Source: an uncultured Roseateles sp. (GTDB lineage: Bacteria; Pseudomonadota; Gammaproteobacteria; Burkholderiales; Burkholderiaceae_C). From it: a DNA stretch of 39,457 nt. The translations under genes were made by a program, and so were the position numbers. The notes below the pieces were generated by a model. It made no database searches. It had not been told where the DNA came from and saw only the letters and a program-made list of their open reading frames with translations. Of this stretch, positions 6,453 to 22,050 are shown in pieces (position 1 is the stretch's first letter; every line of letters begins with the position of its first letter). The stretch spans positions 1 through 39,457 of the forward strand of contig NZ_CAMFJS010000035.1 of the NCBI RefSeq assembly GCF_945956965.1, in the 5' to 3' direction.

Positions 6453-6539
6453 TGGTGCGCGGGGCCGGACTCGAACCGGCACGCCGGTGAAGGCGTCAGG
6501 ACCTAAACCTGGTGCGTCTACCAATTTCGCCACCCGCGC
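6453..6539 (-). tRNA. tRNA-Leu(UAG), complete with encoded CCA
   Basis: On the minus strand the gene begins GCGCGGGTGGCGAAATTGG and ends with the matching acceptor strand CCCGCGC followed by ACCA (CCA at 6455-6453). The anticodon loop TTTAGGT places TAG at 6505-6503. A long variable arm (GCCTTCACCGGC region) and the T-arm GTTCGAGTC mark a class II tRNA. The 87-base length fits leucine. It lies directly upstream of tig. Confidence 0.97.
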
Positions 6540-17644: not shown

Positions 17645-19186
17645 CTAGCCCTGCGCCGCCACACGCTCCAATTTGCTTCGCAGCTTGTTCAAAGCGCTCA
17701 AATAGGCCTTGGCGGACGCGACCACGATGTCGGGGTCGGCGCCCACGCCGTTGACGACGCGGCCGGCATGCTGCAGGCGAACGGTCACCTCGCCTTGCGA
17801 TTCTGTGCTGCCACTGGTGATGGCATTGACCGAATAGAGCAGCATCTCGGCGCCACTTTGGGCGGCCGACTCAATCGCCTTGAGCACGGCGTCCACCGGG
17901 CCGTTGCCCTCGCTCTCGGTGCGGCGCTCTGCCTCACCGGCCGCGAAGACGACGCTGGCGTGCGGGCGCTCGCCCATTTCGGAGCGCTGCGCCAGCGCCA
18001 CCAGACGGTAATGCTCTTGCTCGGCGGTGACCGACTCGTCCATCACCAGGGCGATGATGTCTTCGTCAAAGATTTCGTTCTTGCGGTCGGCCAGGTCCTT
18101 GAAGCGCACAAACGCCGCATTCACCTCGGCCTCCGACTCCAGCGAAATACCCAACTCCTGCAAGCGCTGCTTGAAGGCATTGCGGCCGCTCAGCTTGCCC
18201 AGCACGATTTTGTTGGCGGCCCAGCCCACGTCCTCGGCCCGCATGATTTCGTAGGTGTCGCGTGCCTTGAGCACGCCGTCCTGGTGGATGCCCGAAGCAT
18301 GGGCAAAGGCGTTCGCCCCCACCACCGCCTTATTGGGTTGCACCACAAAGCCAGTGGTCTGCGAGACCAGGCGCGAGGCGGCCACGATGTGGGAGGCGTC
18401 GATATTGCAGTCCAGGCCAAAGTAGTCGCGCCGGGTCTTGACGGCCATCACCACTTCTTCCAGCGAGCAGTTACCCGCCCGCTCACCCAGGCCGTTGATG
18501 GTGCATTCGATCTGACGCGCGCCGCCGATCTGCACACCGGCCAGGGAATTGGCCACCGCCATGCCCAGGTCGTTATGGCAATGCACCGACCAGATGGCCT
18601 GATCCGAATTGGGCACACGCTCGCGCAAGGTCTTGATGAAGTTGCCGTACAACTCGGGGATGGCGTAACCCACCGTGTCCGGGATGTTGATGGTGCGCGC
18701 GCCTTCCTTGATCACCGCCTCAACGACGCGGGCCAAAAACTCTGGATCCGAGCGATAGCCATCTTCGGGCGAGAACTCCACGTCATCCGTCAGATTGCGG
18801 GCAAAGCGCACCGCCAGAATGGCTTGCTCCAGCACCTGCTCACGCGTCATGCGCAGCTTCTTCTCCATGTGCAACTCGCTGGTCGCAATGAAGGTGTGAA
18901 TGCGCGAGCGCGCCGCACCCTTGAGCGCCTCGGCCGCACGGGCAATATCGCGGTCATTCGCACGCGCCAAGGAACAGACCGTGCTTTCACGCACCGCGTC
19001 GGCAATTGCCTTCACCGCCTCAAAGTCGCCAATGCTGGAGGCGGCAAAGCCGGCCTCGATCACATCCACTCGCAGGCGTTCCAACTGGCGCGCAATGCGC
19101 AGCTTCTCGTCCTTGGTCATGGAGGCGCCGGGGCTTTGCTCGCCGTCACGCAAGGTGGTGTCGAAAATGATCAGTTGCTGGCTCAT
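17645..19186 (-). CDS. leuA: 2-Isopropylmalate synthase, short bacterial type (LeuA)
   Basis: It condenses acetyl-CoA with 2-ketoisovalerate, the first committed step to leucine. The protein has 513 residues. The TIM-barrel catalytic domain carries [12 protein letters not shown] (about residues 9-20), the metal ligands [11 protein letters not shown] (about 205) and GLGERAGN. The C-terminal LeuA dimer or allosteric domain (about residue 390 on) confers leucine feedback in this family. The start at 19186 has AAAGGAT upstream. It follows the other, longer leuA by 77 bases with no terminator between them, so both are probably expressed from the attenuator-controlled transcript. Citramalate synthase is a less likely alternative, since the sequence matches LeuA throughout. 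Confidence 0.95.
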
Positions 19187-19263: not shown

Positions 19264-20955
19264 TCAGTCGACCGCGATGGCCGCGCGTGCCACGCTAAGC
19301 TGGCCTTTGCCGGCCGCCCGGTTCAGGCCTGAGACCACAGCTTTGAGCGAGGCCGACACGATATTGGCATCGACGCCCACGCCGAAGAGCGTCAAGCTCT
19401 CGCCAATGCGCAATTCCAGATAGGCCACGGCGCGGGCATTGGCGCCGCTGCCAATCGCGTGTTCGTGATAGTCCAGCACCCGCACGGCGGCGCCGAGCTG
19501 GCGGCTCAAGCCGGCAACAAAGGCATCGATGGGACCGGTGCCCTGTCCGTCGATTTGCAGCGTTTGGCCGGCCACTTGCGCTTGGCCGCGCAAGCTGGCG
19601 ATGCCGCCCGCCGCTTCACTCAGCTGCGCCTGCACGCTGGTGCTGGCCAGGCCGTATTCGCCTTCAAAAATACCCCACAGATCGGCGGCGGACAACTCCT
19701 TGCCAGCGTCATCCATCACCGCCTGAACCACCTGGCTGAATTCAATTTGCAGGCGGCGCGGCAACTCCAGGCCGTACTCGGTTTCCAGCAAATAGGAGAT
19801 GCCGCCCTTGCCCGACTGGCTGTTGACGCGGATCACCGCGTCGTAGCTGCGACCCAAGTCCTTGGGGTCGATGGGCAGATAAGGCATGTCCCACAGATCA
19901 CCCTCGTTGCGGGCGGCAAAGGCTTTTTTGATCGCGTCCTGGTGCGAGCCCGAGAAGGAGGTGTAGACCAGATCGCCCACATAAGGATGGCGCGGATGCA
20001 CGCTGAGCTGATTGCAATGCTCAACACAGCGGCGCACCTCATCGATGTCAGAGAAATCCAGCTGCGGGTGTACGCCCTGGGTGTAGAGATTCAGCGCGAT
20101 ATTGACCAGGTCGACATTGCCGGTGCGCTCGCCATTGCCGAACAAGCAGCCTTCGATGCGGTCGGCCCCGGCCATCAGCGCAAACTCACCCGCCGCCGTG
20201 CCGGTGCCGCGGTCGTTATGCGGATGGACCGACAAGATGATGGAATCACGGCGCGCCAGATGGCGATCCATCCACTCGACCATATCGGCAAAGATATTGG
20301 GCGTGGAATGCTCCACCGTGGCAGGCAGGTTGATGATGCATTTGCGCTCGGGCGTCGCACCCCAGGCCTCGGTCACGGCATCCACCACCTGCTTGGAAAA
20401 AGCCAGCTCGGTGCCAGAGAACATCTCGGGCGAGTACTGGAAAACAAACTCGGTATCCGCCTGCGCAGCAGCCAGTTCACGCACCATGCGGGTGTGATGA
20501 GTAGCAAGCTCGACGATCTGCGCCTCATCCAGCCCCAGCACCACCCGGCGCATCACCGGCGCCACGGCGTTGTAAAGATGGACGATGACGCGGCGCGCGC
20601 CGATCAGCGATTCAAAAGTGCGCTCAATCAGGGGCTGGCGCGCCTGCGTCAGGACCTGGATCGTCACATCCTCAGGGATATGGTTTTGCTCGATCAGCAG
20701 GCGCACAAAATCAAAATCAGCCTGCGAAGCGGAGGGGAAGCCGACCTCGATCTCCTTGAAGCCGATCTTCACCAGCATCTGGAACATGCGCAGCTTGCGC
20801 TGCGGATCCATGGGCTCGATCAAGGCCTGGTTGCCATCGCGCAGATCGGTGCTCAGCCACAGCGGCGCCTGCGTCAGCTGGGCATCGGGCCAAGTCCGGT
20901 CGGGCAAGGCGATGGGGGCAAAAGCGCGGTACTTGGTCTGTGGCTGCTTCAACAT
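19264..20955 (-). CDS. leuA: 2-Isopropylmalate synthase, long type (LeuA type 2)
   Basis: This is a second isopropylmalate synthase, 563 residues, of the long LeuA type otherwise known from actinobacteria and fungi. Its N-terminus [17 protein letters not shown] is typical of that type. Catalytic motifs are [20 protein letters not shown] (metal histidines) and GNGERTGN, each differing from the neighbouring leuA. A C-terminal regulatory domain ends [21 protein letters not shown]. The ATG at 20955 is preceded by TCTGGAG. A longer frame to 21027 would run through the terminator stem and is rejected. It is the first structural gene after the leucine attenuator leader. Two different leuA types side by side is unusual. 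Confidence 0.94.
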
Positions 20956-20997
20956 GGGGAATGCTCCAGAGTGATTGATTTGCAACCCACAGACACG

Positions 20998-21037
20998 AAA
21001 AAAGAAACGGCCCGCTGCAGATTGCATACGGGCCGTT
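20998..21037 (-). terminator. Intrinsic terminator in the leuA leader (attenuator)
   Basis: On the minus strand a perfect 9-bp stem AACGGCCCG/CGGGCCGTT with a 14-base loop is followed immediately by TTCTTTTTTCG. It lies 36 bases after the leader-peptide stop and 42 bases before the leuA start. A terminator inside a 5' leader, after a leucine-codon-rich peptide, is the hallmark of transcription attenuation. Confidence 0.88.
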
Positions 21038-21073
21038 GAGATCAGATTGACGTTCTTGTAGAGACGCGCGCGA

Positions 21074-21130
21074 TCACCGAACCCGTGGGGTTCCTAGTAG
21101 TAGACCGAGCATGTTCAACGAGAAATTCAT
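21074..21130 (-). CDS. leuL: Leucine leader peptide of the attenuator
   Basis: The 18-codon frame reads [18 protein letters not shown]. Five residues are leucine, with three consecutive CTA codons (21103-21095), a rare leucine codon in GC-rich genomes. An internal ATG at 21112 could start a 12-residue version. No strong ribosome site is seen. If transcription starts near 21131, the first ATG would be at or near the 5' end (leaderless). GAACCC and GGGTTC at the end of the frame (21093-21079) form a hairpin. ACGGGTT (21086-21080) can instead pair, with two G-U pairs, with GGCCCGT of the terminator's 5' arm. Ribosome stalling at the CTA codons would cover GAACCC and favour the second pairing. 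Coding potential and folding are read directly; the mechanism is inferred from the known enterobacterial leu operon. Confidence 0.75.
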
Positions 21131-21137
21131 AGCGCCG

Positions 21138-21146
21138 AATATAGCA
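21138..21146 (-). promoter_or_regulatory. Extended -10 promoter for the leu leader
   Basis: TGCTATATT on the minus strand fits the extended -10 form TGnTATAAT with one mismatch. No good -35 is visible 17 bases upstream, which is normal for extended -10 promoters or for activator-dependent ones. The expected transcript start is near 21131, at the leader ATG. Confidence 0.5.
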
Positions 21147-21149
21147 CGC

Positions 21150-21165
21150 AAGCGCCCAGGCGCTT
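21150..21165. repeat. Inverted repeat at the -35 position of the leu promoter
   Basis: AAGCGCCCAGGCGCTT is a perfect inverted repeat with 7-base arms and a 2-base centre. It lies 12 bases past the pssA stop and covers where the -35 box would be. It could be a regulator site or a hairpin at the pssA 3' end; there is no T tract. Confidence 0.5.
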
Positions 21166-21176
21166 GGCGCACAAGC

Positions 21177-22019
21177 TTATTGATGCAAGCCCTTTTCATC
21201 GGGCTCATCTGTCGAGGTGGCAATCACGCTGACAGGCTTACCCTTGAGTTTTTTGTAGGTGTAGACCGCGTAACCCGACAGGCCGTAGAGGCAGAACAAG
21301 AAGAACAGCACCCGCGGCGGATCGATATTGATCACCGCGATCAAAAGCGCAATCGCCACGATCACGATGAAGGGCACCGAACGCTTGAAGCTCACATCCT
21401 TGAAGCTGTAGAAGGGCACGTTGGTGACCATGGTCAGGCCGGCATACAGCGTGACCGCAAACACCAGCCAAGCCTGCGTGGGCTGGGCATGCACATTCTT
21501 GAAGCCGGCTTCATCCATCACCCACACCAAGCCGGCCAGAATGGCCGCCGCCGCCGGGCTGGGCAAGCCCTGGAAGAAGCGCTTATCGACCACGGCTAGA
21601 TTGGTATTGAAGCGAGCTAGGCGCAAGGCCGCGGCGGCGCAATACACAAAGGAGGCGAACCAGCCCCATTTACCCAGGCCTTGCAGGCCCCAGATGTACA
21701 TGATCAAGGCAGGCGCAGCGCCAAAAGACACCATGTCGGAGAGGCTGTCCATCTGCTCGCCGAAGGTGCTTTGGGTGTTGGTCATGCGGGCCACGCGCCC
21801 GTCCAGGCTGTCCAGCACCATAGCGCTGAAAATGCCGAAGGCGGACTGCTCGAAGCGCCCGTTCATCGCCATCACGATGGCGTAGAAGCCGCTGAACAGG
21901 GCCGCCAGCGTGAACAGATTGGGCAGGATGTAAATGCCCTTGCGACGCGGGCGCAGGGGTTCTTGGAGTTCGGTGTTGTCGTCTTCGGGAAGATCGACGG
22001 AGGTCTTTGGCTCAGTCAT
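21177..22019 (-). CDS. pssA: CDP-diacylglycerol-serine O-phosphatidyltransferase
   Basis: Phosphatidylserine synthase joins CDP-diacylglycerol and serine at the inner membrane, the first step to phosphatidylethanolamine. The protein has 280 residues from the ATG at 22019. The CDP-alcohol phosphotransferase signature is complete: DSLDGRVAR, then FGEQMDSLSD, matching D-x2-DG-x2-AR-x8-G-x3-D-x3-D. About eight hydrophobic segments follow. This is the membrane type (type II), not the E. coli-type PssA. An in-frame TTG three codons upstream is an alternative start. pssA between ilvC and leuA is a known Burkholderiales arrangement, usually with psd next to it, but psd is absent here. A terminator after ilvC suggests pssA relies on read-through or its own promoter. 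Confidence 0.94.
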   Translation of the reverse strand: MTEPKTSVDLPEDDNTELQEPLRPRRKGIYILPNLFTLAALFSGFYAIVMAMNGRFEQSAFGIFSAMVLDSLDGRVARMTNTQSTFGEQMDSLSDMVSFGAAPALIMYIWGLQGLGKWGWFASFVYCAAAALRLARFNTNLAVVDKRFFQGLPSPAAAAILAGLVWVMDEAGFKNVHAQPTQAWLVFAVTLYAGLTMVTNVPFYSFKDVSFKRSVPFIVIVAIALLIAVINIDPPRVLFFLFCLYGLSGYAVYTYKKLKGKPVSVIATSTDEPDEKGLHQ

Positions 22020-22050
22020 GGGGCGCAAGGATACAGCAGACGGGCCATGG

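Follow-up and report, generated by a model that had tools for sequence, protein, structure and literature searches.

Two genes for 2-isopropylmalate synthase lie in tandem in the stretch of DNA analysed here (39,457 nucleotides, referred to as the window), and the short region in front of them raises the question of whether entry into leuA is controlled there by an attenuator that responds to leucine. The region is situated on the minus strand between pssA (21177-22028), which lies upstream, and leuA1 (minus strand, 19264..20955, ATG at 20955), which codes for a yeast-type 2-isopropylmalate synthase of 563 aa (NF002991 and TIGR00970 above cut-off). The second gene, leuA2 (minus strand, 17645..19186), codes for a bacterial-type 2-isopropylmalate synthase of 513 aa (NF002087 and TIGR00973 above cut-off). 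These profile matches bear out the initial annotation, which had spoken of tandem leuA genes; the yeast-type gene comes first and the bacterial-type gene second. The genes ilvC, ilvH and that for the large subunit of acetolactate synthase are located upstream of pssA. Elsewhere on the minus strand of the window, Rfam matches to tRNA are present at 6456-6539 and 1-51, the latter being cut by the window end.

Judged from its sequence, the region is a genuine attenuator for leucine of the well-known type; two of its traits appear uncommon, namely an apparently leaderless leader peptide and a putative conserved pairing placed behind the terminator. We consider it very probable that it works as a ribosome-mediated transcription attenuator for leuA, which would sense leucyl-tRNA via rare CTA codons in a leaderless leader peptide.

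Parts of the leader and their conservation

Inspection of the minus strand reveals every attenuator part that the initial annotation had named, whereas one element, at 20992-20981, which can pair with the terminator loop, was missing from its list. The extended -10 promoter element TGCTATATT (21138..21146) is identified from its sequence and from the consensus TGCTACATT of 144 unique leaders, in which positions 1, 2, 7 and 9 are identical in 97-100% (positions 4 and 5 were search requirements for the leader set). The ATG of a leader peptide gene of 18 codons, predicted to be leaderless (21074..21130), follows 7 nt after the -10 element at 21130; no other occurrence of TGNTANNNT followed by an ATG at 5-9 nt is present on either strand of the window. 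Three CTA leucine control codons (21095..21103), assigned from the sequence and from the enrichment of CTA in leaders, are followed by a protector hairpin (21079..21093), seen in the sequence and in folding, with the arms GAACCC (21093-21088) and GGGTTC (21084-21079). The antiterminator strand ACGGGTT (21080..21086) is located inside the peptide gene and has its partner GGCCCGT at 21034-21028, within the intrinsic terminator hairpin (21006..21037). The arms of this hairpin, AACGGCCCGT (21037-21028) and GCGGGCCGTT (21015-21006), include one T-G pair, and the T run TCTTTTTT occupies 20998..21005. Folding of the stretch 20996-21129 is better than that of 200 out of 200 dinucleotide shuffles (z -4.57). 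Just 5' of the -10 element lies an inverted repeat, AAGCGCC TG GGCGCTT (21150-21165), which is possibly an operator or the end of the pssA transcript.

A plain BLAST search with the leader gives a match in 31 of 100 genomes of the window's family. A covariance model (R1), made from 30 BLAST-matched loci and containing the terminator as its only structure, matches 272 of 300 family genomes and 109 of 115 genera at E ≤0.001; the genomes were at least 95% complete and included those used for training, and the 272 matches were counted without one-by-one inspection of a model trained on the same family. A weak R1 match may represent another leader, as the model also matches an aromatic leader in the window's own genome. 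Across the order, R1 matches 27 of 399 genomes; 18 of these matches are of whole length (at least 59.9 bits), 13 in the window's family and five in one other family group (f9), and the remaining nine are weak, eight of them being partial matches at the terminator. Within the own genome of the window, a 261-base query around the leader finds only itself. Rfam has no family at gathering score in the leader region of the window, where a search at E up to 10 yields a single chance-level match to another family, and no match above cut-off in 20 related loci, most of which (18) represent other families of the order.

A search of named genomes with a pattern for the terminator only gave at least 119 loci, and 110 of the 119 listed have the complete arrangement; Comamonas, Hydrogenophaga, Polaromonas, Ramlibacter, Pelomonas, Piscinibacter and Lautropia are among the genera listed, together with others. 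The full arrangement is also present in all 43 loci retrieved by leader similarity. The pooled set comprises at least 153 loci with the same order of parts and 144 unique leaders, and the next gene in the 153 loci is leuA1 in 94 and leuA2 in 56, with no leuA in reach in three. Repeats of other loci (L001, L032-L036) and loci with weak or partial model matches or aromatic leaders (L050-L061) were left out of the leader counts. No leader was accepted in nine loci (L099, L103, L104, L106, L119, L121, L138, L169 and L170), of which L103, L104 and L106 (Streptomyces) and L121 (a Planctomycetota MAG) look like chance matches to the pattern, L099 and L119 are situated at the edge of the available sequence and L169 has a leader-like peptide below the cut-off. 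One record named as a Chitinophaga pinensis MAG (L164, CALPRQ020000015.1) contains a Burkholderiales leader whose peptide is the same as that of L018, a genome of the window's family; the name of this record is probably wrong.

The run of leucine codons, the CGGG[CT] strand of the antiterminator and the terminator, whose conservation the initial annotation had proposed to check, are all kept across the family. The sequence-based outcome that it had named as a refutation, a lack of such conservation in relatives, was not observed. Covariation, which it had also proposed to test, is scarce in the antiterminator strand, where almost every leader has the same letters. When 30 leaders are folded together with RNAalifold, the terminator is the sole structure found, and the protector and the antiterminator do not emerge.

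Leader peptide and proposed antiterminator

CTA accounts for 338 of the 614 leucine codons in the 144 unique leaders, as against 7 of 4672 in the downstream leuA genes, counted over the first 1200 nt at most of each gene. At least one CTA is present in all 144 leaders and LLL in 125 of them, although acceptance of a leader demanded at least three leucines and an adequate -10 box, which conditions both the leucine and the spacing statistics. It has been reported that CUA codons are the sensitive control codons in the leu attenuator of Salmonella (passages of PMC1183508, citing Carter 1986). The same passages state that a change of CUA to CUG in the Salmonella leu leader lowered its sensitivity, and that CUA is in theory the most suitable leucine control codon in E. 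coli (PMC1183508).

The start codon is ATG in 143 of the 144 unique leaders and GTG in one. The distance from the end of the -10 element to the start codon is 6-8 nt in 136 of the 144 and exactly 7 nt in 81; candidate starts scored higher for ATG, for leucine and for a -10 box at 5-10 nt upstream, which conditions the range, while the peak at 7 nt is not built in. Transcription typically starts about 6-8 nt after the -10 element, which would leave the leader with a 5' untranslated part of about 0-3 nt. The conserved spacing therefore suggests that the leader peptide is probably leaderless, with the transcript starting at the ATG or within about 3 nt of it, and lends support to an earlier guess that the first ATG lies at the transcript start. 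The pattern of an extended -10 element and ATG is not enriched over the window's own genome as a whole (8 matches, compared with 5 in a reversed control), and two of the 8 matches are the leu leader and the aromatic leader. The relevant parts of PMC4603805 and PMC7563307 document transcripts without a leader for Burkholderia cenocepacia and Cupriavidus metallidurans; the term leuA is absent from the main text of both papers. If the leader peptide is indeed leaderless, it would make leaderless initiation measurable in a natural regulatory setting.

The motif CGGG[CT] is present within 132 of 140 unique leader ORFs, compared with 17% of dinucleotide-shuffled ORFs. It falls in two main reading frames (99, 30 and 3 leaders in the three frames), and is translated as HGRRR-like in one set of leaders and as PRVR-like in the other. 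Retention of the motif while the peptide differs by frame points to selection on the RNA. In 109 of 144 leaders the best match to the antiterminator starts 7-10 nt past the leucine run, and in 132 of 144 it starts 13, 14 or 17 nt before the end of the ORF, so that a ribosome on the early leucine codons would leave the motif mostly free, and a ribosome at the stop codon would cover it.

Nascent RNA was folded with the footprint of the ribosome masked, and the pairing of CCCG, in the 5' arm of the terminator, with CGGG was scored. With the ribosome at the leucine run, the predicted pairing probability exceeds 0.5 in 127 of 129 leaders (mean P 0.97), compared with 46 of 129 without a ribosome (mean P 0.36); the count of 0 of 129 with the ribosome at the stop codon is true by construction, because the footprint masks the motif itself. 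For the window leader the corresponding values are 0.999 when stalled, 0.0008 without a ribosome and 0 at the stop. A measure that accepts any pairing of the arm with the leader gives 0.94, 0.36 and 0.38 for the stalled, ribosome-free and stop states of 137 leaders, the partner stretch differing among the three states. Dinucleotide shuffling of the stretch between leucine run and terminator still leaves a mean P of 0.64 for arm-leader pairing (0.94 unshuffled), with values above 0.5 in 73%, which indicates that part of this signal is G+C content. Once complete, the leader folds into the terminator in every ribosome state (mean P 0.99-1.00). The complete leader thus always prefers the terminator at equilibrium, and antitermination could only come about kinetically. 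The antiterminator shows few compensatory changes, two leaders having GCGGGCT/GGCCCGC, and the strand is nearly invariant.

The conserved parts and the ribosome-masked folding agree with the attenuation mechanism that had been proposed earlier, and anatomy, conservation and folding together suggest the following course. Transcription would begin at the ATG or within about 3 nt of it, and the ribosome would load straight onto the 5' end. When leucine is ample, the ribosome would reach the stop codon and cover ACGGG, leaving the GGCCCGT arm free, and the terminator would form. When leucine is scarce, the ribosome would stall on the CTA codons and disrupt the protector hairpin; ACGGG could then pair with CCCGT before the 3' arm of the terminator is made, and RNA polymerase would read into leuA. 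In the read-through mRNA, the terminator loop would pair with a strand (S2') that lies about 26 nt ahead of leuA. The locus might instead be a plain terminator after pssA accompanied by a chance ORF; the terminator does come after pssA, and G+C-rich stems with T runs are common. This is scarcely credible, as the ORF, its spacing from the -10 element, the CTA bias and the CGGG[CT] motif are all conserved.

A pairing element behind the terminator

The additional pairing, S2, is formed by a 5' strand TGCAATCTGCAG (21015..21026), which consists of the terminator loop and the top base of the 3' arm, and by S2' CTGTGGGTTGCA (20981..20992), which is located between the T run and the leuA start. The two strands of the window can form 12 pairs, some of them G-U, with -16.6 kcal/mol as a duplex, and 1 of 2000 single-base shuffles is as good. 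Of 141 unique segments, about 86% score above the 95th percentile of their single-base-shuffled downstream sequence, as against 33% when loops are matched with the downstream stretches of other loci. In an alignment of the 141 segments made from sequence only, the top three column pairs by mutual information are pairs of S2, in one register with one gap column between. Pair 19-74 is A-T in 60 segments, C-G in 37, T-G in 15 and T-A in 9 (121 standard), pair 24-70 is G-C in 69, A-T in 45 and G-T in 7 (121 standard), and pair 17-76 is standard in 128. Mapped onto a tree of 83 LeuA1 proteins, changes of the middle pair of S2 number at least 17 on the 5' side and at least 22 on the 3' side, and the pair is standard in 70 of the 83 rows. 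Independent contrasts with all letters kept, taken from well-supported pairs only, run in the same direction in a mean of 4.8 of 5 in one test (p 0.0625) and of 2.9 of 5 in the other (p 0.25), and never in the opposite one, five each being too few to reach p 0.05 alone. At the level of these alignments, it is shown that the complementarity of S2 has been maintained in evolution.

Of 143 loci, 123 have an S2 helix score of at least 18 (77 of 88 loci ahead of leuA1 and 46 of 55 ahead of leuA2), and the 20 loci that have no good S2 indicate that it is not essential. The junction between S2 and the terminator arm measures 0 or 1 nt in 106 of the 123 loci, and the end of S2' lies at a median of 26 nt before leuA1. 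This layout suggests an H-type pseudoknot consisting of the terminator stem and the loop pairing, with the T tract as the crossing loop. Polymerase reaches S2' only once it has passed the termination point, so whether transcription ends at the first T run cannot depend on S2', and the roles left for it are in the read-through mRNA, in trans, or none. There is somewhat less than an even chance, in our estimate, that S2 forms the pseudoknot and acts on the translation or stability of leuA mRNA, not on termination. S2 is conserved and readily testable, and it sits where the classical attenuator model has nothing. A Polaromonas MAG (JAURVI) has the attenuator twice (L077 and L078), once before leuA1 and once before leuA2; the two loops differ (ACCAGCAAC and AAACGCAGC) and each is matched by its own S2'.

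Several other roles for S2 have to be weighed. The terminated leader RNA might act in trans, its loop pairing with S2' in leuA mRNA, in the way of rnTrpL of Sinorhizobium; termination is expected to release a leader RNA of some 130 nt whose loop covaries, and a leaderless trp leader RNA is described as working in trans in S. meliloti in the part of PMC7298713 concerned. This seems unlikely, because the leuA mRNA has its own copy of the loop nearby and the spacer between leuA1 and leuA2 in the window pairs with the loop no better than chance (score 10, shuffled median 12).

It also appears quite unlikely that S2 is a second, alternative terminator, in which the loop strand would form a hairpin with S2' and, with a U tract behind it, stop polymerases that had escaped the first. 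A T run (at least 4 T within 9 nt) does follow S2' in 33 of the 123 loci, including 21 of the 46 before leuA2, but the other 90, with the window among them, are without one, and only 12 of the 77 loci before leuA1 have it; as a general function of S2 this is rejected.

A further explanation needs no selection on RNA. Templated changes would by themselves copy complementarity, and S2 could be a by-product of quasi-palindrome mutation by template switching between the loop and the downstream repeat, which would fit the weakness or absence of S2 in 20 of 143 loci. We regard this as improbable in view of the junction of 0 or 1 nt in so many loci and of the many separate changes on both sides that keep the pair.

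Least probable among these is a translation switch in which S2' would have two alternative partners, the terminator loop and the first codons of leuA, and in the latter pairing would hide the ribosome site. Minimum-energy folds do pair S2' with early leuA codons in several of 7 loci folded. However, S2' matches the leuA start of its own locus no better than starts swapped in from other loci (median 16.5 for both in 75 leuA1 loci; 11.5 and 12.0, respectively, in 46 leuA2 loci), which leaves sequestration of the leuA start by S2' unsupported, and blocking of S2' has no consistent effect, the ribosome site becoming more open in 27 and less open in 18 of 75 loci.

Related leaders in the order and in other bacteria

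Leucine attenuation is textbook knowledge in enterobacteria, and the leader described here resembles the enterobacterial leu attenuator in having a leucine-codon leader peptide, a putative antiterminator and a terminator before leuA. The passages concerned describe CUA codons in the enterobacterial leu leader of Salmonella (PMC1183508) and a leader of 28 aa with 4 leucines in E. coli (PMC6123439). The window leader differs from it in lacking an Rfam match, in being apparently leaderless, in the sequence of peptide and RNA, in the covarying pairing past the terminator, and in that the next gene is the yeast-type leuA in 94 of 153 loci. The Rfam family in question is Leu_leader, which we take to be RF00512.

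The actinobacterial LEU element likewise combines a leuA leader, a leucine peptide and a proposed pseudoknot; there the pseudoknot has at its base a pairing of the leucine codons with the Shine-Dalgarno sequence of leuA, and the leucine section of the paper describes no terminator (PMC1262725). Here, in contrast, the terminator is central and its loop would be used by the putative pseudoknot. The trp attenuator of Sinorhizobium meliloti (rnTrpL/peTrpL) is described in PMC7298713, in the part that concerns it, as an RNA that starts at the ATG of the leader peptide, a start that is predicted for our leader; it differs in responding to tryptophan, in belonging to Alphaproteobacteria and in the trans roles reported for it (PMC7298713), such roles being hypothetical here. 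The attenuator peptide of Staphylococcus aureus, as summarized in PMC5794164, is also a leucine-rich leader peptide of branched-chain amino acid genes, but in a Firmicute. No account of a leuA attenuator in Betaproteobacteria was found in the open-access literature, covered mostly as titles and abstracts. A passage in a review mentions putative leuA attenuators 'across various Gram-negative species', citing the 2004 survey of proteobacterial attenuators by Vitreschak and colleagues (PMC6123439), and an attenuator of leuA in this lineage may have been described earlier, for example in that survey.

Outside the window's family, 45 loci upstream of leuA from 30 other family groups of the order were analysed, namely 25 of the best leuA1 loci and 20 hand-picked leuA2 loci. 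A leucine-rich, apparently leaderless ORF (TANNNT, an ATG 5-9 nt later, and 15-40 codons with at least four leucines and one leucine pair) is present before leuA in 27 of the 45 loci and in 20 of the 30 groups, compared with 0 of 45 reverse complements and 0.8% of single-base shuffles. The peptide has LLLR near its end in 18 of the 27 (LLLRPAR, LLLRLAR, LLLRGRAH and the like), and CTGCTGCTGCGC...GCGCGC is near-invariant in an alignment of 21 of them, from which L186, L187, L217, L218, L222 and L227 were omitted as deviating. For 17 of the 27 loci, the 350 nt that precede leuA contain no TTTTT, L222 being an exception with a clear hairpin and T run. Several of these leaders have a well-paired hairpin further down whose sequence varies. 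A Rho-dependent output from the C-rich tract past the peptide stop was also considered, and the tract does not discriminate (median percentile 0.94 in the 27 other-family leaders and 0.90 in 153 leaders of the window type).

A wider reading, tentative and on balance rather doubtful, is that an order-wide leaderless leucine leader has had its output exchanged. In the window's family it would act through a terminator and a read-through pseudoknot, the latter being a second, post-terminator layer of control on leuA mRNA; elsewhere it would consist of a structured leader, mostly without a T run and possibly translational or Rho-dependent, with LLLRPAR-like peptide ends.

The window's own genome contains another leader that appears to be leaderless, MNSRFAFFSFWYFCNRTGG... 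(L059 1501-1661; G000:C14:3234-3394). It encodes an aromatic-rich peptide, MNSRFAFFSFWYFCNRTGGDRGDSVNHK, and has a terminator, and the gene that follows is for a class I DAHP synthase (TIGR00034). Similar aromatic peptides are present in L058 and L060.
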